From: Verrucomicrobiales bacterium
GTDB taxonomy: Bacteria > Verrucomicrobiota > Verrucomicrobiia > Verrucomicrobiales > DEV007
DNA: 37,599 nt
NCBI GenBank assembly: GCA_029233965.1
Contig: JARGOP010000008.1
Coordinates: 75,007 to 112,605, forward strand
Reading direction: 5' to 3'
Position numbers and translations under genes: made by a program. Of this stretch, positions 2,804 to 35,985 are shown piece by piece (within the stretch, counting starts at the first letter, position 1; the number at the start of each line of letters is the position of its first letter). The notes under the pieces were generated by a model. That model made no database searches. It was given only the letters and a program-made list of their open reading frames with translations, and had not been told where the DNA came from.

Positions 2804-2813
2804 TTTTAATCCT

Positions 2814-4744: not shown

Positions 4745-4748
4745 TCAA

Positions 4749-5132
4749 TCAGTCTTCCTCTTCGACCAAGGCATACTCCTCAAGGATGCTTCGTGAAACA
4801 TATTGGAGCGCAGCTTCGGAAGTCGCTTCGAGAACGACGGGGCAGGCGTAGCCTGCATCAAGGGCCTCTTTCCAGCGGCCCGCGCAGACGCACCACCGAT
4901 CACCGGGCTTCAAGCCGGGGAATCCGTAGATTGGCATGGGTGTGGAAAGATCGTTCCCCATGGACTTGCTGTAGGCGAGAAATTCTTCGGTAAGTTCACA
5001 ACAAATCGCGTGGCAGCCATGATCCTCGGGACCGACCTGGCATCGTCCGTTGCGATAGAATCCAGTGAGCGGATCCATACTGCACGGAATGAGTTCTTGT
5101 CCTAACACGTTCTTGTTTTCCTGCGGGTCCAT
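4749..5132 (-). CDS. DUF2237 family protein
   Basis: A 127-residue protein matching the DUF2237 family almost end to end. It has NVLGQELIPCS near the N-terminus, then GFYRNGRC, GPEDHGCHAICC, LTEEFLAYS, GNDLSTPMP, FPGLKPGDRWCVCAGRW and a closing ATSEAAL. The many conserved Cys (C17, C31, C40, and the CC and WCVC pairs) and His residues suggest metal binding or redox chemistry. No function is established for the family, which is found in bacteria, algae and other eukaryotes. There is no signal peptide. The gene is convergent with the esterase (4 bases between stops) and divergent from the RND efflux operon, so it is probably a single-gene unit. No Shine-Dalgarno is visible before the ATG at 5132. 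Confidence 0.9.
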   Translation of the reverse strand: MDPQENKNVLGQELIPCSMDPLTGFYRNGRCQVGPEDHGCHAICCELTEEFLAYSKSMGNDLSTPMPIYGFPGLKPGDRWCVCAGRWKEALDAGYACPVVLEATSEAALQYVSRSILEEYALVEEED

Positions 5133-6520: not shown

Positions 6521-6538
6521 ACGGGGTGGGAATTTGTT

Positions 6539-9919: not shown

Positions 9920-9929
9920 GTTGTTGGAA

Positions 9930-11423: not shown

Positions 11424-12707
11424 ATGGAAGCCAAAGCTCCTTCTTTCTTTCAATCATCGGTGGATCGTCGTTTCTTCCTTCGGAGCGCGGTCGCAACGAT
11501 TGCGCTGCCTTCTCTCGAAGCGTTTGCGGACGAGAAGAAACAACCGGAGTCCGGAACCGCCCGTAATTTTGTCGCGATCGGTGCATACCTGGGGTGGCAT
11601 CAGAAGGCCTTTTATCCGGCGGCAACCGGTCGTGGTTATGAAATGCCCCGAACCCTCAAGCCAATAGAGGCTTACCGCGATCAGTTCACGATTTTCTCCG
11701 GTCTCGATCATCGGGCTCCCAATGGACACGGAGCCTGGATCAACTTTTTGAGCGGGAAGGCGCCGGGAACTTACTCGCTGGATCAACAGATCGCCGATCA
11801 GGTCGGCGGGAAATCACGGTTCGCTTCGATCGAGCTCGCGACAGGAGTGGGAGAAGGCGCGAAAACGATGAGCTTCACGAAGCAGGGGGTCGGTCTGCCC
11901 ACGATCATGCGCCCCAGCGTGTTCTATAAGCAGCTCTTCGTCTCGAAAGAGGATCGCGAGCGGGCGGAGTACCTGATCAAAAGCGGCAAGAGTTCGCTCG
12001 ACAGCGTTCTCGGCGATGCGAAGCGCTTTCAGTCGACGCTTCCAAAGCGGGATCGCGAAAAACTGGACGAATACTTTGATTCCTTTCGCGCCGTGGAGAA
12101 GCGGATGGATCGTCAACTCGCGACCCTCGATGAGCCGGTTCCTGAAACCGGCTATCAGTTGCCGAGCTACGATCCGATCACGCCGAACCTGCAGATGGAG
12201 GCCGGGAGCATCATGTATGATCTCATGGTCCTCGCGCTCGAGTCCGGTTCGACCCACGTCCTTTCGCTTTTTCTCGACGGTCTCGGTCAGGTTTTTGCGA
12301 TCGATGGAGAGACGCTCAAGGCCGGTTATCACGCGCTCTCACACCACGGTAACGATCCTGAAATGATCGAAGATCTTGTCGCGATCGAACGGGCGCACAT
12401 CGATTGCTTTGCCGGGTTCCTCCGGCAGCTTTCCGAAAAGAAGGATCCCACGGGGAAGACGCTTCTCGATGATACCGTGATTTTGTTAGGCACCGGCATG
12501 GGGGATGCGAGTCGGCATAGTAACGCGAATCTCCCGACGCTCGTGGCCGGAGGCGGGTTCAATCATGGACAGCATCTCGCGATCGATGCAAAGAAGCCGG
12601 ATGCTCCGCTTCTCGGTGATTTGTATCTCACTCTGATGGAGCGCATGGGGATCGAGCAGGAGAGCTTCTCCAATGCTTCCAGAAACCTGAATCAATTGTT
12701 TTCGTGA
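11424..12707 (+). CDS. DUF1552 domain protein, Tat-exported
   Basis: A 427-residue protein of the DUF1552 family, which is typical of Planctomycetota, Verrucomicrobiota and Myxococcota. The N-terminus carries a twin-arginine signal (DRRFFLRSA, R15-R16, then a hydrophobic stretch to about A35), so it is exported folded. The body resembles the alkaline-phosphatase/sulfatase-like DUF1501 group: GAYLGWHQKAFYP, LDHRAPNGHGAW, LDGLGQVF, HHGNDPEM and GTGMGDASRH are recognisable blocks with His/Asp residues that might bind metal. No enzymatic activity has been assigned to the family. It is translationally coupled (TGATG) to the following DUF1592-type cytochrome, its usual neighbour in PVC genomes. The two probably act together outside the cytoplasm. 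Confidence 0.85.
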   Translation: MEAKAPSFFQSSVDRRFFLRSAVATIALPSLEAFADEKKQPESGTARNFVAIGAYLGWHQKAFYPAATGRGYEMPRTLKPIEAYRDQFTIFSGLDHRAPNGHGAWINFLSGKAPGTYSLDQQIADQVGGKSRFASIELATGVGEGAKTMSFTKQGVGLPTIMRPSVFYKQLFVSKEDRERAEYLIKSGKSSLDSVLGDAKRFQSTLPKRDREKLDEYFDSFRAVEKRMDRQLATLDEPVPETGYQLPSYDPITPNLQMEAGSIMYDLMVLALESGSTHVLSLFLDGLGQVFAIDGETLKAGYHALSHHGNDPEMIEDLVAIERAHIDCFAGFLRQLSEKKDPTGKTLLDDTVILLGTGMGDASRHSNANLPTLVAGGGFNHGQHLAIDAKKPDAPLLGDLYLTLMERMGIEQESFSNASRNLNQLFS

Positions 12708-15343
12708 TGTCAGGATTGAATCCGGTTTACGGAGGTGTCCTCGCCGCTGCCGTGCTTTTCGGGTTGCCAGTGAGCCTGAGAGCTGAGCTTGAGTCGGTCC
12801 CGGAACCGGTTCAGGATATTCTCTTTGAGAGTTGTTTTGAATGCCACGACGGCGATTCGGAGAAGGGTGGAATCAATCTGGATCAAGTCGAAATCCCCTG
12901 GGGTGATCCCGGGGCGGTGGCGCAGTGGTATAAGGTTTTCAAGGTGATCGATCACGGTCACATGCCGCCGCCGGATAAACCGCAGCTATCAGAGGAAAAG
13001 AAAAAAGAACTCCTCGCCTTTCTTGATGCCGAGCTGCGCGAGCACACCTCGATCGGGGGAACGCTTCCGCGACGTCTCAACCGGCTGGAGTATCAAAACA
13101 CGATTCGAACCACCTTTCGCATGGACGAATTTGAGCTTCCGATCGGGTTCCCCAAAGACAATCGGGAGCACGGTTTTGATACGGTGAGCGAAGCCCTCGT
13201 GCTTTCGCCGCCTCTGCTCGCCGCCTACCATGAAGTCGCCGGGCAGATTGCGGATGAGCTTTTTCCTCCGGCAAGGACATTGCCCGGGCCGACCCTGCGG
13301 CGCGCCGGGGTGGAAGATCTCGTCCTCAGCTTTTCCGCCGCGACGGTGCATGGCGATGCGTTGAGGCTGGCCTGCAGCAGCACGGATTCGATCATGCGAA
13401 GCAGCACCTGGCCGAGCAAGATTGAGGTGACCACTTCGGGGATGTATCGTGTCACCATTGATGCCTCGACTTTCCGACCGCGCGATGACTCATCGCTAAC
13501 GCTCGAAGTGAGAGCGCGGGATGTCGCCGCGAGTGATCGGTCCTCCACTAAGGTTCATCGCCTCCTCAAGGAATTCGAAGTGACTTCCGAATCACCGGAG
13601 ACATTTTCCTTGGAGGCCGAACTCTACGAAGGGCAGACGCTCCTTTTCCGATGGGCCGATGCGGAGCTGACGCATGACCCGAAGGTATTCGCTCCGCTCC
13701 TTAAAAAGCGTTTCGAAGAAGATCCACGATTTCTTGCGGCGTGGCAGGAGATGCTTTTCCCGAAACGAAAGGGACGCGCCCCGGTGCCGAGCCTGAGGGG
13801 GAGAAATGGATGGGAGATTTATCAGCGTCATTTAAATGATCCGAATCTCGATCTCTCGGATGCGACGATGGATTCCCGCTACACGAAGGAAATTTTGAAA
13901 CTTGCGCAGGATCCCGGTGCGGTGAGGAATCTCGGAGACAGCCTGACTTACGAGTATCACGAGTTCGGCCCTGCTCTGGAACTCCACGGTGTGACGATTG
14001 AGGGCCCCTTTTCCGCGGTGGATGGTCCGAAGGATATACGCCGGACCAGCATCCGCGAATACAGTTTCGGGAAACGACTGGAGACGGATACGGACGAAGC
14101 CTACGCCCGCCGCGGTATTTCCGGTTTTCTGACCCGTCTCTTTCGCCGACCTGTCGATTCCGAAACAATTGCCGCCTTCCTTCAGGTCGCCAAAGACCAT
14201 TGGGAAGCCGGGCACTCTTTTGATGAGGGAATGCATTTGGTGCTCCGGCAGGCGCTTGTTTCCCCCCGGTTTTTACTCCGCGAGACTTCGCCCGGAAAAC
14301 TGGACCAGCACGACCTTGCGAGCCGGATCGCGTATTTCCTGACCCGCTATCCTCCCACAAGCCAGATTGTGCATTTCGCGCGGGCGGGGAAACTGAGCGA
14401 TCCTGAAGTTCTCCGCAGCGAAATTGAGCGACTCATCCCGACAAGCCCGTCCGCCCCGATGATCAAAGACTTCGCCGGGCAGTGGCTGCATACCCGTCTC
14501 CTGCCGGAGATCATGCCGGATGCGTCGTTCGACTTTACGGTTGAGGAAGTTGAATTGGCGAGAATCGAAGCGGAGCGCTTCTTCGCGAAAATGATCGAAG
14601 AAAACCGGCCTATGACGGATTGGATCGCGCCGGACTTCATGCTCACGTCGCGCCGCTTCGCAGAGGAGAACTACGGGTATCCTCCAAAGGGGGGAAAGCT
14701 CGCGGGTGCTTCGGTGACTTACCGGTCGGACCACATGAAAATCGAACGGCTGCAAATTGACCCAAAAGGAATCCACGGAGGATTGCTAGGGCAGTCAGCA
14801 ACGATGATGGCAACCGCAAACGGGGTCGATACCCAGCCGGTTCTGCGCGGCGTCTGGGTCCTCGAAAACATTCTCGGAATGCCAACTCCTCCGGTCCCCC
14901 AGAATGTCCCGGCGCTGACGCCCGATGTGCAGGGAACGACGACCCCCCGCGAACTGCTCGCGGCGCACACGAAATCGGCGGATTGTGCCAGCTGCCACCG
15001 GCATATCGACCCGATCGGTTTTGCGCTTGAGAATTTTGACCCGGTGGGGCGTTGGCGCGAAAACTGGCCTGAGACCGGTGTCCCGATTGACTCGACCGGG
15101 GTGCTTCCGGATGGCACGAAGATCGCCGGCTATCTCGACTTTAAGCAATGGCTCGTTTCAAACATCAGTCTCGTCTCCGAGTGCCTTGCGGAGAAGCTCA
15201 TGATCTACGCGACCGGTCGCATTCCCTCCTACGCCGAGCAGGTCGAAATCAAAGGAATCGTAGATCGCATCGAAGCGGAGAAGGGTGGTTTCCGGGATTT
15301 GCTGGTCGCCTTGATCGAAAGTGAAACCTTTCAAACCCGCTGA
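12707..15343 (+). CDS. Secreted planctomycete-type c-type cytochrome protein (DUF1587/DUF1592/DUF1588/DUF1585 architecture)
   Basis: An 878-residue exported protein read from the ATG at 12707, which overlaps the previous stop as TGATG. A GTG three bases upstream is an alternative. A signal peptide covers about residues 1-26. The N-terminal haem-binding motif is CFECH (C43-C46-H47) followed by KGGINLD, the PSCyt1 signature. A second motif CASCH (C760-C763-H764) with HIDPIGFALENFDPVGRWR is the DUF1588 signature. Between them lie LPRRLNRLEYQNTIR (DUF1587), RLFRRPVDSETIAAF (DUF1595/1592 region) and FAGQWLHTRLLPE (DUF1592). The C-terminal ECLAEKLMIYATGRIPSYAE is typical of DUF1585. Family members are proposed to be multidomain cytochromes acting on polymers, but no reaction is proven. 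Two CxxCH motifs leave room for two haems. Confidence 0.88.
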   Translation: MSGLNPVYGGVLAAAVLFGLPVSLRAELESVPEPVQDILFESCFECHDGDSEKGGINLDQVEIPWGDPGAVAQWYKVFKVIDHGHMPPPDKPQLSEEKKKELLAFLDAELREHTSIGGTLPRRLNRLEYQNTIRTTFRMDEFELPIGFPKDNREHGFDTVSEALVLSPPLLAAYHEVAGQIADELFPPARTLPGPTLRRAGVEDLVLSFSAATVHGDALRLACSSTDSIMRSSTWPSKIEVTTSGMYRVTIDASTFRPRDDSSLTLEVRARDVAASDRSSTKVHRLLKEFEVTSESPETFSLEAELYEGQTLLFRWADAELTHDPKVFAPLLKKRFEEDPRFLAAWQEMLFPKRKGRAPVPSLRGRNGWEIYQRHLNDPNLDLSDATMDSRYTKEILKLAQDPGAVRNLGDSLTYEYHEFGPALELHGVTIEGPFSAVDGPKDIRRTSIREYSFGKRLETDTDEAYARRGISGFLTRLFRRPVDSETIAAFLQVAKDHWEAGHSFDEGMHLVLRQALVSPRFLLRETSPGKLDQHDLASRIAYFLTRYPPTSQIVHFARAGKLSDPEVLRSEIERLIPTSPSAPMIKDFAGQWLHTRLLPEIMPDASFDFTVEEVELARIEAERFFAKMIEENRPMTDWIAPDFMLTSRRFAEENYGYPPKGGKLAGASVTYRSDHMKIERLQIDPKGIHGGLLGQSATMMATANGVDTQPVLRGVWVLENILGMPTPPVPQNVPALTPDVQGTTTPRELLAAHTKSADCASCHRHIDPIGFALENFDPVGRWRENWPETGVPIDSTGVLPDGTKIAGYLDFKQWLVSNISLVSECLAEKLMIYATGRIPSYAEQVEIKGIVDRIEAEKGGFRDLLVALIESETFQTR

Positions 15344-15441
15344 AGACTTCGTGGAGTGGATGCGGGAAAATGCCCCGGTTGTTCACGTAATCCCGCTGTC
15401 TGCATCCCGTGCTTTCGACGGGAATCGGCTTAGATTGAAGG

Positions 15442-17745
15442 GTGACCAAGTCGTTATTCTTCCCCGGTTTCCTGACTTTTCTTCTCTTCGGGATCTGCCT
15501 GCCTTTCGAGAGCAGGGCGCAGCCGGAGGGTGAGATGAGTGGTACGGAGTTCTTCGAGCGCCGCGTCCGACCGCTTCTCGTGAAGCATTGTTATGAATGC
15601 CATTCCGAGGCGGAGGGTTCGCAGAAGGGCGGTCTTCTCCTCGATCGCGAAAGCGGTTGGCTTGAAGGCGGCGATACCGGCAAAGCAGTCGTTCCCGGGA
15701 ATGTTCAAGGGTCACTCCTGCTCGAGGCGGTGGCCTACACCGACCCGGATTTCGAAATGCCGCCGAAGTATCAGCTCGAACCCGGCGAGATTGCGATCCT
15801 GAAACGCTGGGTCCTCGACGGAGCCGCCGGTCCTGCTGAGGACATGGGCGAAACGGAGTTCTCGCAGCTGGGCGATCAGACGGTCATTTTTGAAAAGGCC
15901 AAGGATCACTGGTCCTTTCAGCCGGTCGGGAAAGTGACTCCGCCTCAAGTCTCCGATGCGGAATGGAACGGGAATCCGATCGATCAGTTCGTTTTCGCCA
16001 GGCTCGCGGAAAAGGGACTTACTCCATCACCGCCAGCCGATCGGCGAACCATCGTGAGAAGGCTGAGCTACAAGCTGACCGGCCTTCCTCCCTCGGCGGA
16101 GGATATGGGGGTGAAGAATCTCAATCTTTACCTCAATGAACTGATCGATTCGCCGCGCTTCGGCGAGCATGTGGGGCGTTACTGGCTCGACGTGGCGAGA
16201 TATGCCGACACCGCGACCACTTACCGCGCTGACACGAAGACGCCGCATTATTACCCCTACGCCTTCACCTACCGGGACTATGTCATTGAGTCATTCAACG
16301 AAGACAAGCCCTTTGACCTTTTTGTGAAAGAGCAACTCGCGGCGGACCTTCTCGGACTGGAGGCAAAAGACCCCCCTCTCACCGCTCTCGGGTTTCTCGG
16401 GGTTTCACCGCATCGCAACATGTCTGCGGACTTCGTCGATGACGTCATCGATGTGACAACCCGCGGGATTCTCGGGATGACGGTCTCCTGTTCGCGTTGC
16501 CACGATCACAAATTTGAGCCGGTTCCGACGGCCGACTATTACTCGCTCTATGGAGTCTTCAATTCCATCAATCGTCCCGAGCCGTGGGATTTGGAAGACT
16601 ATCCTGTGATCGATGGCTACCACCCTCCGCAGGCTGAGGTGGCCAGTTACACGAAAGCGAAAGCTGCGATCGACAAAAAGATCAAGGACGCCGGTGAGTC
16701 CGTGAAGAAGGGAAACAACCGCTCCGTTGCGGAAGAGATTGAGCAGACCGACCTCGCTGAACTGCTTCTCTTTCACGAGGGGGCTCCGGTCAGAGCGATG
16801 GCCGTTTCCGAAAAGCCGAAGCCAACCGAGCCCTTCATTTTCGTTCGGGGCGAAGCGTCGAGCCGGGGGGATCGGGTTCCGCGACGTTTCCTGAAAATCA
16901 TCGATCCTGAGCAGGAGCCGTTTAGCAGGGAAAACAGCGGGCGTCTCGATTTGGCGGAAAAACTGGTTGATCCAGCGAACCCGCTTACCGCGCGAGTTTA
17001 TGTGAACCGGATCTGGGCCATGCTCATGGGCGATGCGATTGTCGACACGCCCTCTGATTTCGGTCTTCAGGGAGAGGCTCCGAGTCATCCGGAGTTGCTC
17101 GACTTTCTCGCGGCGCAATTTGTCGAGGAAGGTTGGTCGACGAAGAAGCTGGTCCGTCTCATCGCGACTTCAAAGACTTTCCGACAGGCGAGTTGGAATC
17201 GTGAGGAAATGGCGGCGATCGATCCTGAGAACGAATTTTTCTGGAGGGCGAACCGGACCCGTCTTCGCATTGAGGAAATTCGCGACTCCCTGCTCTCGGT
17301 CGCGGGCGAGCTTGATCTGAAAATGCGGGGGCGCCCCGGTCAGATTTGGGGCGACGATTATACGAAGCGCCGCAGCGTTTACGGCTACGTGAACCGCTTC
17401 AACCTCGATCCGACCCTGCGCAATTTCGATTTTCCCTCACCGATGCAGACGCAGGATTCACGCACCGAAAATATCGTGGCTCCGCAGGCCCTCTTTCTCA
17501 TGAACTCGCCGTTCATGATCGATCAAGCCGCCGCGCTACTTGAGGATCTTGCCTTCGAAGATTCCGTGAGCAGGGAGGAGCGCATCGATGCGGTTTTTGA
17601 GCGGGTTTTGCAACGTGCCCCCACCCCCGGAGAGGTGGAGCAGGTGAAGCGTTTCGCTGAAATCGAAGAGGGGCGCAAGGTTTCGCCGTGGCGGTTGCTC
17701 GCGCAGTCACTCTGCATGTCGAACGAATTTTTGTACGTGGACTGA
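15442..17745 (+). CDS. Secreted DUF1549/DUF1553 planctomycete cytochrome C domain protein
   Basis: A 767-residue exported protein starting at GTG (15442), chosen because it opens a clear signal peptide (hydrophobic residues 5-21, cleavage near SRA) and is preceded by a GA-rich segment. The PSCyt1 domain has CYECH (C50-C53-H54) and KGGLLLDRESGWLEGG. DUF1549 follows (FARLAEKGLTPSP, RLSYKLTGLPPS, YWLDVARYAD). It includes a second CxxCH, CSRCH at C350-C353-H354 in CSRCHDHKFEPVPTADYY. The C-terminal DUF1553 has NPLTARVYVNRIWAMLMG and RRSVYGYVNRFNLDP, with NSPFMIDQA near the end. It is shorter than the roughly 1000-residue members that carry an extra concanavalin domain. It is followed after 3 bases by a DUF1501 gene, its standard partner. 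Confidence 0.9.
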   Translation: MTKSLFFPGFLTFLLFGICLPFESRAQPEGEMSGTEFFERRVRPLLVKHCYECHSEAEGSQKGGLLLDRESGWLEGGDTGKAVVPGNVQGSLLLEAVAYTDPDFEMPPKYQLEPGEIAILKRWVLDGAAGPAEDMGETEFSQLGDQTVIFEKAKDHWSFQPVGKVTPPQVSDAEWNGNPIDQFVFARLAEKGLTPSPPADRRTIVRRLSYKLTGLPPSAEDMGVKNLNLYLNELIDSPRFGEHVGRYWLDVARYADTATTYRADTKTPHYYPYAFTYRDYVIESFNEDKPFDLFVKEQLAADLLGLEAKDPPLTALGFLGVSPHRNMSADFVDDVIDVTTRGILGMTVSCSRCHDHKFEPVPTADYYSLYGVFNSINRPEPWDLEDYPVIDGYHPPQAEVASYTKAKAAIDKKIKDAGESVKKGNNRSVAEEIEQTDLAELLLFHEGAPVRAMAVSEKPKPTEPFIFVRGEASSRGDRVPRRFLKIIDPEQEPFSRENSGRLDLAEKLVDPANPLTARVYVNRIWAMLMGDAIVDTPSDFGLQGEAPSHPELLDFLAAQFVEEGWSTKKLVRLIATSKTFRQASWNREEMAAIDPENEFFWRANRTRLRIEEIRDSLLSVAGELDLKMRGRPGQIWGDDYTKRRSVYGYVNRFNLDPTLRNFDFPSPMQTQDSRTENIVAPQALFLMNSPFMIDQAAALLEDLAFEDSVSREERIDAVFERVLQRAPTPGEVEQVKRFAEIEEGRKVSPWRLLAQSLCMSNEFLYVD

Positions 17746-17748
17746 ATC

Positions 17749-19173
17749 ATGGAGAACGAATTTAATCTTTCACGCAGGACCGCTTTGCAGCGTCTTGGTT
17801 TCGGGATGGGCGCCATCGCCGCCTCGGACCTTCTCGCGAGTGTTCAGGGGCGCGGTTTATCGGATTCTCCACTCTCCGTGCGCCAGCCGCATTTTCCCGC
17901 AAAGGCAAAACGCGTCATCCATCTTTTCATGAATGGCGGGCCGTCGCAAATTGACACCTTCGATCCAAAGCCCGGGCTGAAAAAACTCGACGGACAGGAG
18001 CTGCCGGAGTCCGTCAAAAAGACCCTCCAGCCGGCGCAGCGCAACCGGGTCGGTGAGATCTGGGCCTCGCCTTTTGAATTCTCGAAACACGGGGAGAGCG
18101 GACTCGAAATTTCCTCGTTGTATCCGAATGTCGCGAAGCATGCGGACAAGCTCTGTGTGATTCGTTCGATGCAGAGTGAGATCGCGAATCACTCTCCGGG
18201 ACTTCTCATGATGAATTGCGGTCACCCTGTGCTTGCCCGACCCAGCATCGGCTCGTGGGTGCTCTACGGTCTCGGAACAGAGAGCGAGGATCTTCCCGGG
18301 TATGTCGTTCTCATGCCGAGTGGAATGCCGACGGCTCAGTCCCGCAATTGGACGAGTTCTTTCCTTCCCGGCGTTTACCAGGGAACGCACATCGAAACGA
18401 ACGGCAAAGGCGGCGAAATGATCCCGCATCTCCACCGCGATGATATTCACACGGGGACCCAGCGAAATTTGCTTCGACTCACCAAGTCGTTGAATGAACG
18501 TCACGCCGCGAACCGGCCCGGCGATGAAAGACTCGATTCCCGGATCTACTCCATGGAGTTGGCCTTCCGGATGCAGAGCGCGGCCACCGACGCCTTTGAT
18601 GTCACGAAAGAGCCCGAGCCAGTTCGCGAGAGTTACGGCGACACGCCGGTGGGACGGAATTTGCTCATGGCACGTCGTCTCGTGGAGCGCGGGGTTCGCT
18701 ACGTGCAGTGTTACCATGGCGCCGGCCAACCGTGGGACAGCCACAGTGGACTCCTTCCGAATCACCAGCGCCTTGCGAAGGAATCCGATCAGCCGATTGC
18801 GGCTTTGTTAGGGGACCTCGAAGCACGCGGGATGCTGGAGGATACCCTCGTCGTCTGGGGCGGGGAAATGGGCCGCACTTCGACGATTCAGAAAGTGGCG
18901 AAGAAAGACGTGAATCGCATCGGTCGCGATCACCATGTCGATGGCTTCACCGTCTGGATGGCAGGGGGCGGCGTCAAAGGGGGAATGGCCTATGGCGAGA
19001 CGGACGATTTCGGGTTGGGGGTGGCTTCGAATCCTGTTCACGTCCACGATCTCCATGCCACGATGTTGCATCTCCTCGGCTTTGATCACGAGAAATTGAC
19101 TTACCGTTTCTCCGGTCGGGATTTCCGGCTCACCGATGTGCATGGATCCGTCGTGAAAGACATTCTCGCCTGA
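17749..19173 (+). CDS. DUF1501 domain protein, Tat-type signal
   Basis: A 474-residue member of DUF1501, a sulfatase/alkaline-phosphatase-fold family usually encoded next to DUF1549/DUF1553 cytochromes in PVC genomes. A twin-arginine-like signal (SRRTALQRL, R9-R10) points to export in the folded state. Family blocks in order: MNGGPSQIDTFDPKP, SMQSEIANHSPG, PSIGSWVLYGLG, GRNLLMARRLVERGVRYVQ, WGGEMGRTSTIQ, GRDHHVDGFTVWMAGGGVKG, and GRDFRLTDVHGSVVKDIL at the C-terminus. The His/Asp-rich positions (DHH, HDLHATMLHLLG) could bind metal as in phosphatases, but no activity is demonstrated. It lies 3 bases after the cytochrome gene, so the two are almost certainly co-expressed. The protein is complete. 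Confidence 0.92.
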   Translation: MENEFNLSRRTALQRLGFGMGAIAASDLLASVQGRGLSDSPLSVRQPHFPAKAKRVIHLFMNGGPSQIDTFDPKPGLKKLDGQELPESVKKTLQPAQRNRVGEIWASPFEFSKHGESGLEISSLYPNVAKHADKLCVIRSMQSEIANHSPGLLMMNCGHPVLARPSIGSWVLYGLGTESEDLPGYVVLMPSGMPTAQSRNWTSSFLPGVYQGTHIETNGKGGEMIPHLHRDDIHTGTQRNLLRLTKSLNERHAANRPGDERLDSRIYSMELAFRMQSAATDAFDVTKEPEPVRESYGDTPVGRNLLMARRLVERGVRYVQCYHGAGQPWDSHSGLLPNHQRLAKESDQPIAALLGDLEARGMLEDTLVVWGGEMGRTSTIQKVAKKDVNRIGRDHHVDGFTVWMAGGGVKGGMAYGETDDFGLGVASNPVHVHDLHATMLHLLGFDHEKLTYRFSGRDFRLTDVHGSVVKDILA

Positions 19174-26251: not shown

Positions 26252-28705
26252 TTACTTGATCTCAATCTCAATCGCTTCGGTTTTGGTGAAGCGCTCACGG
26301 GTGTCGCCGCGGCGAACGAGTCGGGCGTGGAAAGATTCCCATGGTTCGATATCAGCGCGGGGTTGGCCCCCTTCGAGGAGAATCTTGCTCGCCGTAGTGC
26401 GGAAGCTCATTGAGCGTCCACCCCATGAAGGGCCGGTCACATCCATGTCGCGAATTCCGCTGGGAAGGCGACGAATCAGCTCATCGAATTTTCGCGTGTT
26501 GTAACCGGGCTCGAACCCGAGTTCTGCCCATCCTTTCGCATAACGGTCACGCTCCTGCCTTGGAAGATTGAAGATGACCTCATTTGGTTCCACAACGGCA
26601 CGGACATCGTCCAGTTTCACACCGTCGGCGGGGAAGTCATACCCGAAGTAGCGATCACTGCGCTCCTGTGCCAGAGCCGGAATCACAAAGTGGATGTGAG
26701 CCCAGTCTCGTCTCCGCTGCTCTTCATCTTCCGAATACTCCGCCACGTAAGTGGCGTTCATTCCTTTGCGGCCAAGGTAAAGGTGGACATCGAATTCGAG
26801 ATCCCCTTCCAGGACCATCTTCCAGATAATTTCCTTGCCGTCAAAGCTCGGCTCCTCCTGCAGGCGGAGGAATTTGCGGTGGCGAATCTGGTGACGTGGA
26901 TCCGGAGCCTCAGGGACGTAAATCCAACTATGGTAATGAAAGCGAATCGGATTCTGGATGAATTGCCCGTCTGCGTTCTTCAAAAAGATATACGCTCTCG
27001 CTTCCGGTCCATAAAAGACTGCTTCGTATTCAGGCTCAACGATCCGGTGAATCTCGGTCCAATCCTTCCCCGGACGGAATCCGTAGAATTCCGGGCTTGT
27101 GATCTCGGGCCGCGGTGCAGCATAGGTGTAATCGATGTCGGTCAATGGCTTCTTTTCCTCAGGCTTGGGAGGAAGCAATGAGGTCGGCATGTCTTCATCG
27201 ACCCCGCCACCGCCAAGGATGGAAACCAGCGTCGGCATCTGACGCCCGAGAGTTCGGTTGGCGATCTTTTTCGTGACCACATCCAATGGCTCGGTCTTCT
27301 TCTCAGCCGGCTGAATGTAGGTGCGGATCTTCCGGCGTCCCAACATCTGCCCGATCGTAAGGGCCACGTCTTCATCGACGAAGTCCTCGAAGTCGGAGAA
27401 AATGTAGAGCGAATCGATCTTTTCCTCCATGAGGAATTCGATCGCGGATTGGACACGGCTCCGGTCCCAGCGTCCATCCGCAAGAAACTGATTCGGGCGG
27501 GTTTTGTAAGTCTCGATGAGACGGTCCACATAGCGCTGAGGTGCTTTTTTGGGAAGATCGTGCCACAGGAACCAGTAAGGAGTCCGTGTCTTCAGCTCGG
27601 GATGATACGGAACGACTTCTTCGGGAACGATGAGGCGCACAGTCTCAAGATCATCAGGATTCCTCTCCTGACGCATGACCATGTTGCGAACATAAACAAC
27701 AGGAGCGTCTTTGAAGTTTTTATCGACCTCACGGACCACCATCGGCAGGTATTCCGCCATTGAACCGGAGACGTCGAGAATGACGCCGAGGACGTCACCT
27801 TGCATTTCCTGGCCGAACATCATCTTCGACTCAGAGGAAGTCGGCATGCCGAGGCTCATGGAGGGGTTGAAGGAAACGATGTTCTCCATCGCCATGTCGG
27901 CGACTGGGACGTCGAGGCTGGAAATGGAGAGGCTGGACTCTGCTGAGACGGAAATAATGTCGGTCACGGCGGTGTTGACGGCCGTCGTTGGATCGACGGT
28001 CGGCTTCTCCATTGTCGTGTCATCGATCGTTTCCTCCTGCTGCTCAGCGGCGTTCGAGGCCACAATCTGAGGAGGAACGTTGGGTGGAATCTTGGTTGCG
28101 ACTGAGATCAAGAGCGCAAAAATCGCGACGTGCAGGAGCACGGTAATAATGATCGAATTGTATTTGTCTCGCTTGATTGACGCTTCGCGGAGACGCTTGG
28201 CTTCCTCCTCGGCCGCGTGGAGAGCGTCCATCTCATCGCTGGAGAAAGAGACCTTCGGAAGAGCGATGGGATCGTTTGATCCGCCACCGGACTTGAGCGC
28301 CTCAACGATCGCCGGGGCCGCAGCGGTGGGTGGCGGAGGAGATGTGCTCTCCACTTCTTCGTCGATATCCTCCGCGGAAAGAGCTACCGGAGTCGGCGCC
28401 ACTGTCGCAGCGATTTGCTGTTCGATTTGTTGCTGATAGATCAGTGACGGCTCATACTCAGGATCAATCTCAAGAGAGCTGGCAACAAGGCCTCTGGCCT
28501 GTTCCAGTGCGCCCACTGCGGCGTAACATTTCGCGGCATCAAGCCATGGCCCCGGTTCGCGGGGCAGGGCTTCTCCCTGATTCACGACCTCGACGGCGGT
28601 ATCGTGGCGGCTCTCGGCGACGAGAGCTTCAACGAGGGAAAGGCGCAGCTCCCAATTTTCGGGGTTGGCGGCGAGCGCTGACTGGAGTTCTGGAGTAGTA
28701 GGCAC
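26252..28705 (-). CDS. TPR + TonB-like single-pass anchor + vWA domain protein
   Basis: An 817-residue protein starting at GTG (28705). Residues 1-100 are TPR-like helices, then an acidic and Pro-rich stretch. The hydrophobic segment SIIITVLLHVAIFALLISVA (184-203) followed by TKIPPNVPP resembles the TonB/ExbD-type N-terminal anchor, although no TonB C-terminal domain was found. The vWA domain starts with GVILDVSGSMAEY, a perfect MIDAS motif (D311, S313, S315). The region after about residue 600 is of unknown fold (HYHSWIYVPEAPDPR, WGGRSMSFR). A cytoplasmic TPR and a periplasmic vWA are predicted. MoxR-associated vWA proteins are comparable, but no MoxR gene is nearby. Convergent with the kinase-like gene. 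Confidence 0.75.
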   Translation of the reverse strand: MPTTPELQSALAANPENWELRLSLVEALVAESRHDTAVEVVNQGEALPREPGPWLDAAKCYAAVGALEQARGLVASSLEIDPEYEPSLIYQQQIEQQIAATVAPTPVALSAEDIDEEVESTSPPPPTAAAPAIVEALKSGGGSNDPIALPKVSFSSDEMDALHAAEEEAKRLREASIKRDKYNSIIITVLLHVAIFALLISVATKIPPNVPPQIVASNAAEQQEETIDDTTMEKPTVDPTTAVNTAVTDIISVSAESSLSISSLDVPVADMAMENIVSFNPSMSLGMPTSSESKMMFGQEMQGDVLGVILDVSGSMAEYLPMVVREVDKNFKDAPVVYVRNMVMRQERNPDDLETVRLIVPEEVVPYHPELKTRTPYWFLWHDLPKKAPQRYVDRLIETYKTRPNQFLADGRWDRSRVQSAIEFLMEEKIDSLYIFSDFEDFVDEDVALTIGQMLGRRKIRTYIQPAEKKTEPLDVVTKKIANRTLGRQMPTLVSILGGGGVDEDMPTSLLPPKPEEKKPLTDIDYTYAAPRPEITSPEFYGFRPGKDWTEIHRIVEPEYEAVFYGPEARAYIFLKNADGQFIQNPIRFHYHSWIYVPEAPDPRHQIRHRKFLRLQEEPSFDGKEIIWKMVLEGDLEFDVHLYLGRKGMNATYVAEYSEDEEQRRRDWAHIHFVIPALAQERSDRYFGYDFPADGVKLDDVRAVVEPNEVIFNLPRQERDRYAKGWAELGFEPGYNTRKFDELIRRLPSGIRDMDVTGPSWGGRSMSFRTTASKILLEGGQPRADIEPWESFHARLVRRGDTRERFTKTEAIEIEIK

Positions 28706-29645: not shown

Positions 29646-30200
29646 ATGGATCGGACCACGCAGGAGCTGTTTGTTGAGCAGGTCCGCGAGCACCACGCGG
29701 GCTTGCGGGGCTTTGTTCGTGCGCTCGGGGTGGATCCTCTCTGGGTCGATGATGTCGCGCAGGAGGCCTTCATTGTCGCCTACAACCGCCTGGAGGAATT
29801 TGACCGTGAGCGCGATTTCGGCGCATGGCTCCGGGGCATTGCGAGGAATCTCGTGATCAATGAACGACGTAAAGATGCACGACGGAAGCGAATTCTTTCC
29901 GACAATCTGACGGACGTGCTGCTTTCCAGTTCGTCCGCGAGCGATCATGAGGAAGAGGAAATTGGAGACAATGGCCTCGCCAAACTCAACGCGCTGCGGG
30001 CGTGTGTAGCGGATCTTCCTGAAAAAAGTCTGAGGCTGCTTCGCTCGCGCTACGAAGACGAGAACTCGGCGCTTGATATTGCCGATGAATTTGAAATGAA
30101 GGCTCCTGCGGTCCGTAAAGCGCTGGAGAGAGTTCGTGTTTCCCTGCGCAAGTGCATGGAGAAGCGGTTGGAAGCGGGTCCGGTCACAGAGTCTGCCTGA
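29646..30200 (+). CDS. ECF-type RNA polymerase sigma factor
   Basis: A 184-residue sigma-70 family factor with only regions 2 and 4. Region 2 (about residues 10-78) has VDDVAQEAFIVAYNRLEEFD, with the core-binding helix, and DFGAWLRGIARNLVINERRK, the -10 recognising helix. An acidic, Ser-rich linker follows (about 90-105). Region 4 (about 118-172) has LPEKSLRLLRSRYEDENSALDIADEFEMKAPAVRKALERVRVSLRKCM, here quoted by its key blocks SRYEDE, IADEF and VRKALERVR, forming the -35 helix-turn-helix. It is immediately followed by a FecR-type protein, its likely anti-sigma partner, with the stop and next start one base apart. Target promoters are unknown; autoregulation cannot be judged. Confidence 0.88.
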   Translation: MDRTTQELFVEQVREHHAGLRGFVRALGVDPLWVDDVAQEAFIVAYNRLEEFDRERDFGAWLRGIARNLVINERRKDARRKRILSDNLTDVLLSSSSASDHEEEEIGDNGLAKLNALRACVADLPEKSLRLLRSRYEDENSALDIADEFEMKAPAVRKALERVRVSLRKCMEKRLEAGPVTESA

Positions 30201-30201
30201 A

Positions 30202-31833
30202 ATGATGGAGTCAAATTCACGAGCCGAAGCGTTGCTGTCCGAATTCCTCAGTGGAGATGCGTCGGAAGAGGTGCTTCGTGAGTTGGCGGATCTTGCTTCC
30301 GGGGATGCCTCCCTGGCGTCCCGGATCCGGACAGAGTTGGAATTTTCCGAGATGCTGAGGCAGTCGATCGGGGAAGATGCCACGGGTGGAGATGTCCTGT
30401 TTTTTCAATCGAAAGCGGCATTTGAGGTGCCGAAGAGCGGGCTTTTCGAGAAGGCCTGCGATGGCGACATCAGCTCCGTGGAATGCGACCAGCTCGCCAA
30501 GTTTTTGTTCGATTCGCCCGGGGAAGTGGCTTCCCTGAAAAAGCGGCTTGCCGAGGATGAGTGGATTCGTGAAGCGGTTTCCGGGTCACGGAGTGAGGAG
30601 GCGTTTATTGAAGCTCTCGAAACAAGGATGTGGGCTGAGACGGTCCGGGATCATTTTGTCGAAGATTTTCAGGATCGACTGGAGCGGGAAATCTCAGTCG
30701 TCGGCGAAGCGGATAACATCGTTGAAATGCCGGTCTCGTGGACGCCAACCGTGCTGAAAATGGCGGCGGTCGCGGCGGCAGTGGTCTTTGGTGCATTCAT
30801 GATGACCCAGGTCGGAGTGAATGGCCTTCCGGCTTCGAATTCGGTCGCGACGGTCACAAAGTCGAGCGCCGATGTGAAATGGTTGGGCGAACATGTTCCC
30901 GGTGCGGACGGGGAAGTGAGCGTCGGGCCGTATGAGCTGGAGCGTGGCATCGTGGCGCTGAAATTTGCCAATGGTGGAGAAATGACCGTCGAGGGGCCGG
31001 CTCTTTTTGAAGTGAAGGATGATGCGACCGCCCATGTCTATCATGGTGTCGCGATGGCCCGGAATAAGCCCTTCAAATCCGGGATCACGCTGAAGTCGAA
31101 CGGACTCAGTGTCTCCGAGCCGGTGCCGCTCATCGGAATCGACGCACGTTCGGAGTTTTCCACGGAAGCAATCGTCTTCGAAGGGGACGGGGGGGTCTGT
31201 CTTGACGGGGGTAGTTGCCGCTCGCTGTTTGAATTTGAAGCGGTCAAAGCGGATCGGAACCGCGACCGTCTTGTCGATATTCCCTACAACCCGCAGCCAT
31301 TCCTCGGAGGTTGGGAGCTGCTTTCCGGGGTGGAAAAGAATCTGGGTTCGGTCCGGATTGAAATGCCGGGAACGACAATTGAGTCTACGGATCGGGAAGG
31401 GGAAGTTCAGGTGTTTGTCGAAAATGAATCGTTCCGGCCCGAAGCCGATCTCGAGGTCGATCAGATTCGCACGGGACACTTTGCTTCTGCGGAGCTGAAT
31501 CCCGGGCAGGCTCTCCAGGCGCGGGGGGACTTGAGAAGTTATCTGCTCCAGCTTTGGCCGACCAACGGGGTCGAAGGCGAAGAGGTCGAGGCCTCCCTGA
31601 CCTTCGATCATGAAGTGGTCGGTGTGATTTATTCTTCAGACCGCCTTACCGATTCAGACCTGTCGGTCGGAACGTCGATTCCCCATGTCGGAGCAGAGTT
31701 CAACAAAGAGCGTGGCCTCGACCTCGGTCGGGATGAAATCCTGTTGAGTGATGATCGGCGCACGCTGAATTTGAAACTCAAGGGCGGCGAACTCGAGGTC
31801 GATCAGATCCGGGTGCTGGTCGCGTTGAACTAG
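30202..31833 (+). CDS. FecR-like transmembrane anti-sigma factor with two N-terminal anti-sigma-like modules
   Basis: A 544-residue protein read from the ATG at 30202 (second ATG 30205). This start is preferred over an upstream in-frame one inside the sigma gene because it restores the usual coupling. Two related helical modules lie at residues 8-56 and 80-126, each with a pattern L-x-E-x(3)-GD-x-S and a following helical stretch. One membrane span follows (about 183-203, VLKMAAVAAAVVFGAFMMT). The FecR domain is about 228-350 (ALKFANGGEMTVEGPALFEVKDDATAHVYHG, recognisable by VEGPALFEV). The last part has Cys C-x5-C (about 334-340) and a repeated LEVDQIR at mid and end. Cytoplasmic modules would hold the sigma factor and the periplasmic part would sense. 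No TonB-dependent transducer is present. Confidence 0.78.
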   Translation: MMESNSRAEALLSEFLSGDASEEVLRELADLASGDASLASRIRTELEFSEMLRQSIGEDATGGDVLFFQSKAAFEVPKSGLFEKACDGDISSVECDQLAKFLFDSPGEVASLKKRLAEDEWIREAVSGSRSEEAFIEALETRMWAETVRDHFVEDFQDRLEREISVVGEADNIVEMPVSWTPTVLKMAAVAAAVVFGAFMMTQVGVNGLPASNSVATVTKSSADVKWLGEHVPGADGEVSVGPYELERGIVALKFANGGEMTVEGPALFEVKDDATAHVYHGVAMARNKPFKSGITLKSNGLSVSEPVPLIGIDARSEFSTEAIVFEGDGGVCLDGGSCRSLFEFEAVKADRNRDRLVDIPYNPQPFLGGWELLSGVEKNLGSVRIEMPGTTIESTDREGEVQVFVENESFRPEADLEVDQIRTGHFASAELNPGQALQARGDLRSYLLQLWPTNGVEGEEVEASLTFDHEVVGVIYSSDRLTDSDLSVGTSIPHVGAEFNKERGLDLGRDEILLSDDRRTLNLKLKGGELEVDQIRVLVALN

Positions 31834-32691: not shown

Positions 32692-33141
32692 ATGAAGTGG
32701 CAAATTGCAGCAGTCGGAAAACCCTCGCTCGCCTACGCGAAGGATGGCGTCGCGGAATATCGGAAACGGCTCCGGCGTTATGCAACGGTCTCCATCGATC
32801 TGATCCAGCGCGATGGGGGGAAAGAGAAGAACGGGCAGCAACTGCTCCAGATGAGTGAAGGCTCGCTCCGGGTGGTTCTCGATGAGCGTGGCAAAAGCTG
32901 GACCACCGGTGAGTTTGTCGAGCGTGTCGAAGGTTGGCAAATGGACGGGGTGAAGCGGGTTTCCATTCTCATCGGGGGAGCTGACGGACACTCTGACGAA
33001 ACACGGGCAGCGGCGGATCATGTCATTTCGATGAGCGGATTCACCCTGCAGCACGAGTTGGCGTTGCTGGTTCTGATGGAGCAGATCTACCGGGTTCATA
33101 CGGTGATGAAAGGCGAACCCTATCACCGCGAGGAGGCGTGA
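32692..33141 (+). CDS. rlmH: 23S rRNA (pseudouridine1915-N3)-methyltransferase RlmH
   Basis: A 149-residue SPOUT methyltransferase that methylates pseudouridine 1915 in helix 69 of 23S rRNA (E. coli RlmH 155 residues). The SAM-binding trefoil knot includes LDERGKSWTTGEFV (residues about 64-77), the ILIGGADGH loop (about 92-100) and the C-terminal HELALLVLMEQIYRVHTVMKGEPYHR, here matched by EQIYR and PYHR. The YHR end is diagnostic. Divergent from tcdA with only 60 bases between, so their promoters overlap. Confidence 0.95.
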   Translation: MKWQIAAVGKPSLAYAKDGVAEYRKRLRRYATVSIDLIQRDGGKEKNGQQLLQMSEGSLRVVLDERGKSWTTGEFVERVEGWQMDGVKRVSILIGGADGHSDETRAAADHVISMSGFTLQHELALLVLMEQIYRVHTVMKGEPYHREEA

Positions 33142-33220: not shown

Positions 33221-34864
33221 ATGAGACTTTCCCTGAATTTTACCCTCATTCTCCTCCTGACATTGGCGGTCGGAAGTGTGCTGAACGCGGAAGAGGCAAA
33301 GCCTGCACCGAAGAATAAGAAAGCCGCCCCCAAGGTCGAAGCGAAGGAGGGGAAAAAAGCGCCGAAGAAAGAGGCTGCTGAAAAGAATCCTCTTCCGCCA
33401 AAGAAAGAGGACGGTAACAAAGACAAGGCGGACGGAAAGGATGAAGATCAGGAAGGCGGAAAGACTGAGGAAAAAGAAGTCAAGACCCACAAGGTCGAGA
33501 AAGGACCGATCGAGGTAACGGTGAAGGTTTCCGGGATTATCGAGGGTAAAAAGAGCACGCCGCTGGCGATGGACCTGTTGCGTTGGGCTGACCTTCTCGT
33601 CGTGAAATCCGTTCCTCACGGCACGGAAGTGAAGAAGGGCAATGTGCTGGTTGAGTTGGACACGAGGACCCTCCGGAAAAAAATCGAAGAGTTGGAAATG
33701 GGAATGCCCTTGAAGCATTTGGATCTCGAGGCCGCCCGGTTGAATCTCGAAACGTTGCAAAAAACGACACCGATTGCCCTCGAGAAAGCGCGCAAAGCAA
33801 AAATGCAGGCCGAAGAGGATTTCGCCTACTTCGAAGATGTGAGCCGCCCGATGCGGGAGAAGGATGCCGAGCAGGATGTGAAGCAGGTGAGAGAGTATTT
33901 AGCCTATGCCGAGGAAGAGCTGAACCAGCTCAGGAAAATGTATGAGGCAGATGATCTCACCGAAGAAACCGAGGAGATTATTCTGCGTCGTGCGGAGAAC
34001 ACGGTGAACGACTATCGCTGGATGCTGGAGCAGTCCGAAGAGCGGTCGAGACGCACCCTGAACACGCTGATTCCCCGCGAACACGAGAGCCTGCAGCGCA
34101 GCCTTCTGGAAACGCAGCTGAATTGGAGGGCGAATGAAAAATCTCTTCCGGATGCCCTGAAGAAGGCCGAACTGGAGTTTCGGGCGAAGACTCATGAGAT
34201 GGTTGAGTCAGAGAAGTCGCTTGAGGAACATCGGAGAGATCTGGACGCGTTGACGGTCCGCGCGCCCCATGATGGCATCGTTTATCTGGGCATGTCGCAG
34301 CGGGGGAAATGGACGACAGCTTCCACGGTGGAGCGGAAGTTGATTCCCGGGGGGAAGCTCACAATGCGGGAGATTTTCATGACCGTGGTCGATCCTTCGA
34401 ATCCGGAACTCATTCTTTCGATCTCTGAAAACCAGCTCGCGGATCTTGAGGTCGGGCAGGCTGCTGCGGTGAAGCTGACTTCGGATCCGGAAGCGGAAAT
34501 TTCCGGGAAAGTGGCTTCACTCTCCCGGGTTCCCTACGCGGATAACACCTTCAGCGGGGTGATCCAACTCTCGAAGGGGGATCCTGATGCGGTGCTCTTT
34601 CCGGGGATGAAGGCCGAGGCGGAAATCACAGTATACAAGAATCCGGGGGCGCTCCTGATTCCATCCAAGGCGGTGAAGAAAGAGGGCGAGAAAGAAATTG
34701 TGACTCTCAAGGGAGGGGCTGAGCGGGTCATTGAGACCGGTCGTGCTTCGGATGGGAATGTTGAGGTTCTCAAAGGACTGAAGGTCGGTGAGGAAATCGA
34801 ACTTTCCGCGAAACCGGCTGACGACGCTCCTGAGAAGGCGGACCCAAAGGAAGAGAAAAAGTGA
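33221..34864 (+). CDS. HlyD-like membrane-fusion/efflux adaptor with long charged linker and coiled coil
   Basis: A 547-residue exported protein. Signal peptide about 1-23, then a Lys/Glu/Ala/Pro-rich low-complexity linker (24-90), then a biotinyl-lipoyl-like half (IEVTVKVSGIIEGKK, about 97-111, and VPHGTEVKKGNVLVELD, about 131-147). A very long helical coiled-coil region follows (about 150-345, rich in Glu/Lys/Arg/Leu). The second lipoyl half is TVRAPHDGIVYLG, and a beta-barrel segment leads to SKAVKKEGEKEIVTL. The layout matches periplasmic adaptors of RND/ABC systems, but no transporter gene adjoins. The gene ends at GTGA, overlapping the start of the cyclase-fold gene. An AT-rich leader without Shine-Dalgarno precedes the ATG. 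Confidence 0.82.
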   Translation: MRLSLNFTLILLLTLAVGSVLNAEEAKPAPKNKKAAPKVEAKEGKKAPKKEAAEKNPLPPKKEDGNKDKADGKDEDQEGGKTEEKEVKTHKVEKGPIEVTVKVSGIIEGKKSTPLAMDLLRWADLLVVKSVPHGTEVKKGNVLVELDTRTLRKKIEELEMGMPLKHLDLEAARLNLETLQKTTPIALEKARKAKMQAEEDFAYFEDVSRPMREKDAEQDVKQVREYLAYAEEELNQLRKMYEADDLTEETEEIILRRAENTVNDYRWMLEQSEERSRRTLNTLIPREHESLQRSLLETQLNWRANEKSLPDALKKAELEFRAKTHEMVESEKSLEEHRRDLDALTVRAPHDGIVYLGMSQRGKWTTASTVERKLIPGGKLTMREIFMTVVDPSNPELILSISENQLADLEVGQAAAVKLTSDPEAEISGKVASLSRVPYADNTFSGVIQLSKGDPDAVLFPGMKAEAEITVYKNPGALLIPSKAVKKEGEKEIVTLKGGAERVIETGRASDGNVEVLKGLKVGEEIELSAKPADDAPEKADPKEEKK

Positions 34865-35985
34865 AAGCCGCCTCTTTCATCGCGGTTTGGGCCGTTGCTC
34901 TTCTCTCTCCGTGCCTTCGCACGGCGGACGGGAGTCCCGTCGAAGAAGCAATCGTCGCCGGCGTCGAGTTTCTCATTCAGGACCAAAACCCCGATGGCAG
35001 CTGGGGCTCCGCGAGGCAGACGAAGGGACTCAACATCTACGCACCGGTGCCGGGAGCTCACGATGCATTCCGCGCGGCGGTGACCGCAATGGCCGTCTCC
35101 GCGATGATTGATTCCGGCCTTGCCGACGATCCGGGAGAAGCGGCTGAAGCGCTTCAGAAAGGGGAGCTTTATCTGTTGGACTCATTGCCCAAAGTCCGGC
35201 GTGCCGACGCGACGGCGATCTACAACGTCTGGACGCATGCCTACGGGATTCAGGCGCTGACGGACATGTATCCGCGGGCGAAGGGAGAGCGGAGAGAGCA
35301 AATCCGCGAACTGATCGCGCAGCAGATTGACCGCCTCGGGCGTTATGCCTCGGTCGACGGCGGTTGGGGCTACTATGACTTCCGGGTGGGAACGGCAAGA
35401 CCGGCGTCGAGCTCGATCAGCTTCACCACGGCAACTTGTCTCGTCGCGTTGCACGAGGCTTCCAAAATTGAAGGGATTGAAGTTCCCGGGAGGATGGTGG
35501 AGGCGGCCGTGGCTTCCATCAACCGGCAGCGGAAGTCGGATCACAGCTACCTCTACGGCGAATACTTGAAAGCCCGCCCGATGTACGGCATCAACCGTCC
35601 AGCCGGCAGTCTCGGCCGGTCCCAGGCCTGCAACTACGCACTCCGAATCTGGGGCGATGAGACGATTGAAGATCCGGTCATTGAGGGATGGCTCGTTCGT
35701 CTCGGAGACCGGAACGGCTGGCTCGATATAGGACGAAAACGTCCCGTTCCGCATGAGGCCTGGTTCGCCGTTGCAGGATATTTTTTCTACTACGGTCACT
35801 ATTACGCGGCGCTCTGCACCGAGTTGCTGCCCGAAGCGGCGAGGGCTCCTCATCAGGAGATGCTTGCCGGAATTTTGATGAATCTTCAGGAAGACGACGG
35901 CTCCTGGTGGGATTTTCCGTTTTACTCCTATCATCAACCCTACGGTACAGCGTTTGCGGTGATGACACTCGCGAAGTGCCGGTAA
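34861..35985 (+). CDS. Secreted terpene-cyclase/prenyltransferase-fold (squalene-cyclase-like repeat) protein
   Basis: A 374-residue protein starting at GTG 34861, overlapping the adaptor stop as GTGA. The N-terminal residues 1-25 look like a signal peptide ending near RTADG. QW-type motifs QNPDGSW (near residue 42) and QEDDGSW (near residue 345) frame an alpha/alpha-barrel, with a degenerate SVDGGWGYYD copy in the middle. The class II cyclase catalytic motif DxDD was looked for and not found, so squalene or terpene cyclisation is unlikely. The fold is also used by prenyltransferase beta subunits, pectate-type lyases and thioester-domain proteins. Coupling to the adaptor suggests a joint envelope function; the substrate is unknown. 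Confidence 0.72.
   Translation: MKAASFIAVWAVALLSPCLRTADGSPVEEAIVAGVEFLIQDQNPDGSWGSARQTKGLNIYAPVPGAHDAFRAAVTAMAVSAMIDSGLADDPGEAAEALQKGELYLLDSLPKVRRADATAIYNVWTHAYGIQALTDMYPRAKGERREQIRELIAQQIDRLGRYASVDGGWGYYDFRVGTARPASSSISFTTATCLVALHEASKIEGIEVPGRMVEAAVASINRQRKSDHSYLYGEYLKARPMYGINRPAGSLGRSQACNYALRIWGDETIEDPVIEGWLVRLGDRNGWLDIGRKRPVPHEAWFAVAGYFFYYGHYYAALCTELLPEAARAPHQEMLAGILMNLQEDDGSWWDFPFYSYHQPYGTAFAVMTLAKCR

Follow-up and report, generated by a model that had tools for sequence, protein, structure and literature searches.

A two-gene unit, encoding a periplasmic adaptor followed by a probably exported protein of cyclase fold, was located in a 37,599-nucleotide stretch of Verrucomicrobiales DNA (assembly GCA_029233965.1, contig JARGOP010000008.1, positions 75,007 to 112,605, forward strand; hereafter the window) and points to an undescribed cell-envelope machine. 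Whereas adaptors are generally regarded as pump components, this one is inherited with a cyclase-fold protein instead, in two phyla with unusual, poorly understood envelopes. What is new here, as read from aligned proteins, is the fixed core length of the adaptor hairpin and its near-invariant tip. No description of the pair was found in the open-access literature searched. The pair comprises the following features, with the basis of each call in brackets.

33221..34864, plus strand: adaptor gene, membrane fusion protein (MFP)/periplasmic adaptor protein family, 547 aa, ATG start (open reading frame (ORF) call, Pfam/NCBIfam, AlphaFold2, PDB comparison).
34861..35985, plus strand: second gene, predicted secreted alpha/alpha6 toroid, 374 aa, GTG start (ORF call, domain search, AlphaFold2, PDB comparison).
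34861..34864, plus strand: GTGA, in which the second gene's GTG start overlaps the stop codon of the adaptor gene (ORF coordinates).
33290..33484, plus strand: K/E-rich linker, adaptor codons 24-88 (composition, AlphaFold2 model, alignment).
33665..34249, plus strand: predicted antiparallel alpha-hairpin, adaptor codons 149-343 (AlphaFold2 model, alignment).
33914..33991, plus strand: hairpin tip, EELNQLRKMYEADDLTEETEEIILRR, adaptor codons 232-257 (model, alignment of 48 adaptors).
34607..34810, plus strand: predicted membrane-proximal-type beta domain, adaptor codons 463-530 (AlphaFold2 model, PDB comparison, alignment).

An adaptor of 547 aa and a secreted alpha/alpha-barrel protein overlapping as GTGA had been proposed from the letters alone, and the ORF coordinates confirmed this arrangement. 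Named genomes were scanned with the second protein, giving 528 pattern matches, of which 476 were confirmed and the best 80 kept as loci; these 80 came from Verrucomicrobiota, Planctomycetota and one uncultured bacterium. In 72 of these an adaptor gene precedes the second gene in the same orientation, so the order found in the window is conserved well beyond this genome, contrary to the refuting case that had been named for the pair. Spacing in the 72 linked loci, taken from longest-ORF starts, was -4 nt in 31, 0 to 60 nt in 24, -1 nt in two, another overlap in nine and more than 60 nt in six, the longest gap (555 nt, L108) following an adaptor read in two pieces. The overlap is real. Overlaps of 4 nt are common in bacterial operons, so its description in the original prediction as the strongest form of translational coupling was overstated.

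In four of the eight non-linked loci (L084, L101, L104, L138) the sequence starts at, or close to, the end of a contig. No adaptor was found in the flanks of L099, L102, L106 or L133; their genomes encode a cognate adaptor elsewhere, which scores 401-505 bits where no other MFP exceeds 109 bits, and have thus kept both genes despite the broken linkage. The tips of these four unlinked cognate adaptors are identical, save one residue changed in G430. Flanks were too short to reach an adaptor in L172 and L175, and partly so in L163, L165, L167, L169 and L185.

Presence of the two genes was matched genome by genome. Of 33 genomes sampled from g1, to which the window belongs, 27 carried both genes and six neither (author-set cut-offs of E<1e-90 for the second gene and E<1e-50 for the adaptor; one of the six, G003, is only 53% complete). 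Family f2 gave both genes in 48 of 60 genomes and neither in 12, at an author-set adaptor cut-off of 200 bits that excludes a 140-bit match in G297, of a type that four other genomes have in addition to their cognate adaptor. The two genes adjoin in 47 of these 48 genomes; in G286 the main adaptor match lies on another contig and a 118-aa adaptor fragment stands beside the second gene, a split that is probably a contig break. All three genomes of family f6 hold both genes. The second protein is far from universal, being found at E 1e-30 in only 27 of 387 genomes sampled across the phylum; within that sample, genus g4 divides into 13 genomes with it (at least two matches each) and 10 without, of 23. 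Distances among adaptors and among toroids over 65 loci were closely correlated (Mantel r 0.883; 0 of 999 permutations as high).

When the ORFs of the 80 loci were clustered, only the two genes of the pair recurred at high frequency. A cluster of 64 loci lying across the pair on the opposite strand was read as shadow frames and rejected as a third gene. The next-commonest neighbours, named by eye, were sulfatase-like proteins (22 loci) and a queA-like gene (16 loci).

The adaptor and the toroid are thus very probably one unit. That an ordinary efflux adaptor is merely co-transcribed by chance with an unrelated gene might be entertained, given several MFPs in relatives, another MFP in the window, 20 OEP matches in the window's genome and the frequency of 4-nt overlaps generally. 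Against it stand the linkage in 72 of 80 loci, the agreement of presence and absence in every genome sampled from the two groups (33 of 33 and 60 of 60) and a signature tip absent from the other MFPs examined. This account is hardly tenable, and as a chance pairing it is refuted by the conservation of the two genes.

By profile and predicted fold, the first protein is a periplasmic adaptor of the MFP type. It scores above the cut-off of NCBIfam RND_mfp TIGR01730 (97 against 94.9 bits) and reaches those of Pfam HlyD_D23 (30 against 30) and HlyD_3 (27.2 against 22.2). Its AlphaFold2 model (mean predicted local distance difference test score (pLDDT) 84.2) has the MFP fold, with lipoyl strands, barrel strands, a membrane-proximal-type domain and a hairpin inserted between the lipoyl halves; MacA, AcrA and EmrA are among its best PDB matches. 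The N-terminus carries a hydrophobic segment and, because no cysteine occurs in the first 30 residues, no lipobox. A charged linker of 65 residues had been noted and was recovered as residues 24-88 (19 K, 12 E, 5 D), mostly predicted disordered, the model being of low confidence from residue 19 to about residue 88. Among 48 aligned adaptors, 0 to 209 residues lie N-terminal of the linker reference point (0 being the truncated L100) and the C-terminal part comprises 10 to 114 residues.

Between these variable ends the hairpin core is constant in length. The coiled coil of about 195 residues that had been proposed corresponds to residues 149-343 of the model, in two helices (149-242 and 250-343) joined by a turn (243-249). 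Each helix of 94 residues would measure about 141 Å at 1.5 Å per residue. This is long for an adaptor, exceeding the 127 Å of the EmrA hairpin, and falls below the periplasmic spans of 170 and 225 Å given for tripartite pumps in PMC4158417, so the suggestion that the coiled coil is long enough to span the envelope is not supported by these figures.

A 196-residue segment starting at residue 141 had a single length in all 48 aligned adaptors, at a median identity of 34% to the window adaptor (minimum 28%). From residue 147 to the tip (residue 244) there were 97 residues in 48 of 48, and from the tip to residue 347 there were 103 in 43 and 104 in five. One other MFP family of the same order (20 members) served as the length control and was compared by alignment, since it does not share the hairpin anchors. 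Its same-size segments starting in the first 200 residues showed seven or eight lengths (190-221) at median identities of 65-73%; segments starting at 221-361 showed two or three lengths (194-196) at 77-82%, and the last two segments five and nine. The control family is more alike internally than the target adaptors. In a wider set of 92 adaptors examined with regular-expression anchors, the first anchor lay at 102 residues in 87, the five misses being diverged or truncated; the second anchor, located with loose expressions, lay at 113 in 68 and at 114 in eight, with no match in 16. The seven adaptor ORFs in which the regular expression found no tip are short and truncated.

The tip, located at the turn of the AlphaFold2 model, has the consensus EELxQLxKMYxxDDLTEETEEIILxR. 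Over its 26 residues the mean majority identity was 0.86, the highest of any window of the adaptor, against 0.41-0.55 in other folded parts (48 aligned). Adaptors bind TolC through the motif RxxxLxxxxxxS, as defined in PMC3391258. No RxxxLxxxxxxS/T motif was present in the hairpin of the window adaptor; its residues Q236, M240 and T247 occupy the positions of the RLS motif in the same spacing, and Q, M and T are each invariant in 48 of 48. Among 84 proteins picked by QLxxMY, a choice that leaves only the third place informative, that place was A in 10 and D in one; these belong to genus g4 and two others. In three loci of genus g4 (L064-L066), two tandem copies of the second gene follow a short adaptor gene, and the tip sequence of this adaptor is DQVAEETEE.

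The signature tip was absent from all four other MFPs alignable across it (L199, L205, L212, L213), two of which are MacA-like adaptors of the relative G034, and a scan of 11 other MFP loci showed no long frame with EE[TS]EE. The tip coding pattern is found once in the window's genome. In its exact DNA form it occurs in four of the 387 phylum genomes, all with the second gene, an undercount because most members of family f2 have diverged tips that so strict a pattern does not match. A length-locked hairpin whose tip is more conserved than the rest yields a sharp prediction about the partner of that tip. Taken together, the constraints suggest an adaptor that has to bridge a set distance, contacts a single specific partner and needs the toroid; by analogy, the tip spacing favours a TolC-type channel as that partner.

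We tentatively prefer a reading in which the two proteins are a dedicated periplasmic pair on a conduit completed by an unlinked transporter and a TolC-type channel, with the toroid binding or modifying cargo. The adaptor would act as a membrane-fusion protein whose hairpin of about 140 Å and fixed length is directed at the outer membrane. Its near-invariant tip would dock on one particular partner, for which a TolC-family outer-membrane channel of complementary mouth is the likeliest candidate; the register would be that of the classical RLS motif, but the chemistry Q-M-T, together with an acidic patch. A transporter in the inner membrane would be encoded elsewhere and possibly shared. The toroid would be exported, probably by Sec, and would act on cargo at the conduit, where its conserved one-ended pocket may serve to bind or modify an envelope molecule that is hydrophobic or of glycan type.

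The surroundings of the pair were searched for such partners. The flanks of the 80 loci (1,024,431 bases in total, up to 8 kb, many cut by contig ends) were searched with eight single query proteins and then with small profiles for OEP, ABC ATPase and RND. The OEP gene of L098 was detected by the profiles only, and a Pfam scan revealed one in L133 that had escaped both searches, so that the counts are lower bounds. The absence of a pump beside the adaptor had been noted from the window and was borne out there and in the homologous loci, none being adjacent or regularly linked. An RND tripartite set that had gone unmentioned lies about 22 kb upstream of the pair:

5243-11348, plus strand: HlyD-type adaptor (425 aa), ACR_tran (1126 aa) and OEP (503 aa) genes (Pfam).

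This set has its own adaptor; apart from it no transporter genes were found among the other large window ORFs scanned, and none adjoins the pair.

Several points weigh against the preferred reading. No transporter is regularly linked, RND genes being found in at least two of the 80 loci (L097, L124) and ABC ATPases in at least two (L089, L109), MFS transporters not having been searched for; likewise no channel is regularly linked, with OEP in at least two of the 80 loci (L098, L133). In six of the 48 adaptors at most 46 residues are left for the membrane-proximal domain, which contacts RND and ABC transporters, and in five genomes of genus g4 the A2 match ends at model position 405 of 470. The arginine of the RLS motif is absent, so that docking to TolC is proposed by analogy only. 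Common ancestry accounts for part of the joint inheritance and of the similarity of the trees. Only one other family served as the ruler control, in which certain segments vary almost as little in length.

In a different arrangement, a ring of fixed-length adaptors would be a transporter-free trans-envelope scaffold or lipid bridge that positions the toroid or the outer membrane, the toroid being the tip's partner or a cap and nothing being pumped. A fixed hairpin with a near-invariant tip and no regularly linked transporter in two phyla would fit it, as would a membrane-proximal domain apparently dispensable in six of 48 adaptors and the fact that toroid and adaptor are inherited one to one. 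The tip, however, has the RLS register of TolC-docking adaptors in its spacing, and a channel partner is available, TolC-family genes being present in 56 of 56 relatives; we regard the scaffold as doubtful, though worth serious attention. Slightly more doubtful is a bolder form of the idea: a transporter-independent module of Verrucomicrobiota and Planctomycetota in which a ruler adaptor with a private tip positions a repurposed cyclase-fold protein that bridges, binds or modifies envelope lipids or glycans. The copy number of TolC-family genes was also tried as a profile and set aside as uninformative, the family being present in all 56. An uncharacterised envelope complex had been proposed at the outset; the conserved two-gene unit without a regular transporter neighbour stands, and physical contact between the two proteins would be an extrapolation from it.

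Some individual neighbourhoods contain transport genes. In L133, whose adaptor is elsewhere in the genome, an OEP-family protein (2800-4908, minus strand, 59 bits) is encoded on the strand opposite to the second gene and 2.7 kb upstream of it. Neighbours of unlinked adaptors included, by eye, FtsH-like genes (L208, L209) and a glycosyltransferase-like gene (L211), and in a planctomycete (L210, 767-5377) the unlinked adaptor lies downstream of GntR and ABC_tran genes (Pfam) and a 546-aa gene with no Pfam match, all on the same strand, possibly a pointer to a transporter; no common theme was seen among the neighbours of these four adaptors (L208-L211). In L067 and L068, of family f6, the pair is followed on the same strand by a SelA-type gene and then by phosphonate-type ABC importer genes (Phosphonate-bd, ABC_tran, BPD_transp_1); Pfam confirmed all four gene types in L067, and ABC_tran and BPD_transp_1 in L068.

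The second protein was modelled (pLDDT 85.9) as an alpha/alpha6 toroid of 12 long helices and one short. The closest PDB structures were squalene-hopene cyclases (2sqc_A, Z 23.6, root mean square deviation (rmsd) 3.8, 292 aligned), tied with GH76 (Z 23.3), and other toroid families (GH105, epimerases, dehydratases, AprG) followed slightly below, the fold matches spanning Z 20-23. A hydrophobic N-terminal segment, scored by a Kyte-Doolittle window, was present in 76 of the 77 toroids that could be anchored out of 81 proteins. Majority identity over 51 aligned toroids was 0.83 in the six long loops of one face and 0.77 in the even helices that start there, against 0.59 in the short loops of the opposite face and 0.53 in the odd helices. 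W, Y, H, R and acidic positions are often invariant in the conserved face. This face has thus been kept as a functional surface, as in an enzyme or a ligand-binding protein, although parts of its long loops are at low model confidence. The earlier suggestion of a binding or scaffold protein, as against an enzyme, is not supported in that form, since an enzyme with another chemistry would show such a face equally.

That the toroid is a secreted enzyme of non-terpene chemistry, acting for example on glycans, with the adaptor tethering it or serving its export, draws on the invariant residues of this face, on the occurrence of the same fold in GH76, GH105, epimerases and dehydratases and on the signal-peptide-like segment in 76 of 77 proteins scored. 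No family-specific catalytic signature, however, was identified in the toroid, squalene-hopene cyclases are among the structures it matches best, a number of toroid families scoring only a little lower, and a Sec-type signal would make an export route through the adaptor needless. We consider this account unlikely as a whole.

A terpene cyclase of hopanoid biosynthesis is the function suggested by annotation, by the fold and by QW-like motifs. PMC7671984 discusses genes annotated as terpene cyclase/mutase in Akkermansia muciniphila, including the consecutive AMUC_RS03775 and RS03780; four such entries (RS03775 among them) were slightly up with ox-bile (log2 fold change 0.21-0.27), which was interpreted as hopanoid synthesis. 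The text of that paper names RS03775 twice where a figure legend has RS10605. The toroid of the window, as had been recognised from its letters, keeps QW-like motifs (at residues 40 and 343) and lacks DxDD, and DxDD was also absent from 80 of 80 homologous ORFs. It is a single domain of 374 aa, scores 28 bits against the cut-off of 431.1 for NCBIfam hopene_cyclase and is probably exported, and we find a hopanoid role very improbable. On the minus strand of another locus of the same genome (L001, G000:C114) there is a 686-aa open frame above the SQHop_cyclase_C cut-off with DADD, which on its sequence is a better cyclase candidate than the toroid. The hopanoid reading of AMUC_RS03775/RS03780 would have to be revisited if these genes are the g4 tandem, an identity drawn only from map position. 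If the present view of the pair is true, annotations that read such genes as hopanoid synthesis need correction, probably including some in the gut bacterium Akkermansia.

Pfam assigned the genes nearest the pair as ThiF genes (upstream, minus strand), a Queuosine_synth (queA-type) gene (downstream) and the following:

32692-33141, upstream of the pair: SPOUT_MTase gene (Pfam).

The genes at 29646-31833 (plus strand) encode an ECF-type sigma factor and, after it, a 565-aa protein that matches no Pfam family, and genes like these two lie upstream of the pair in eight and nine of the 80 loci, respectively. Further off are a row of planctomycete-type cytochrome and DUF1552/DUF1501 genes (11424-19173, plus strand; HXXSHH, PSCyt and PSD families) and an 817-aa protein (26252-28705, minus strand) that begins with TPR repeats, has what by eye is a membrane segment and ends in a long stretch to which Pfam assigns nothing.

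Among known systems, MacA is the nearest to the adaptor, being its top PDB match (9qgy_G, Z 19.6, rmsd 6.2, 321 aligned) and sharing lipoyl, beta-barrel and membrane-proximal domains and an alpha-hairpin. The window adaptor differs in having no MacB-type gene beside it, a 195-residue hairpin whose core does not vary in length, a toroid as gene partner, and Q-M-T with EETEE in place of RLS. The two MacA-like adaptors of G034 have no signature tip, and one of them stands beside ABC permease, ATPase and OEP-like genes (by eye). EmrA also has a very long hairpin, of 168 residues and called exceptionally long in PMC4158417; it has no membrane-proximal domain, as appears to be the case in some homologues of the adaptor, whereas the window adaptor has a longer hairpin and retains a membrane-proximal-type domain (PDB 4tko, Z 16.6, rmsd 11.3). 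HlyD, with the tip motif RLT (PMC3391258), has a threonine at the third tip position like the window adaptor, in which, however, R and L are replaced by Q and M and beside which there is no ABC transporter. Squalene-hopene cyclases have the alpha/alpha6 toroid and QW-like motifs of the second protein, but are two-domain proteins of about 630 aa, whereas the toroid of the pair is one domain, probably exported, without DxDD and far under the NCBIfam cut-off.

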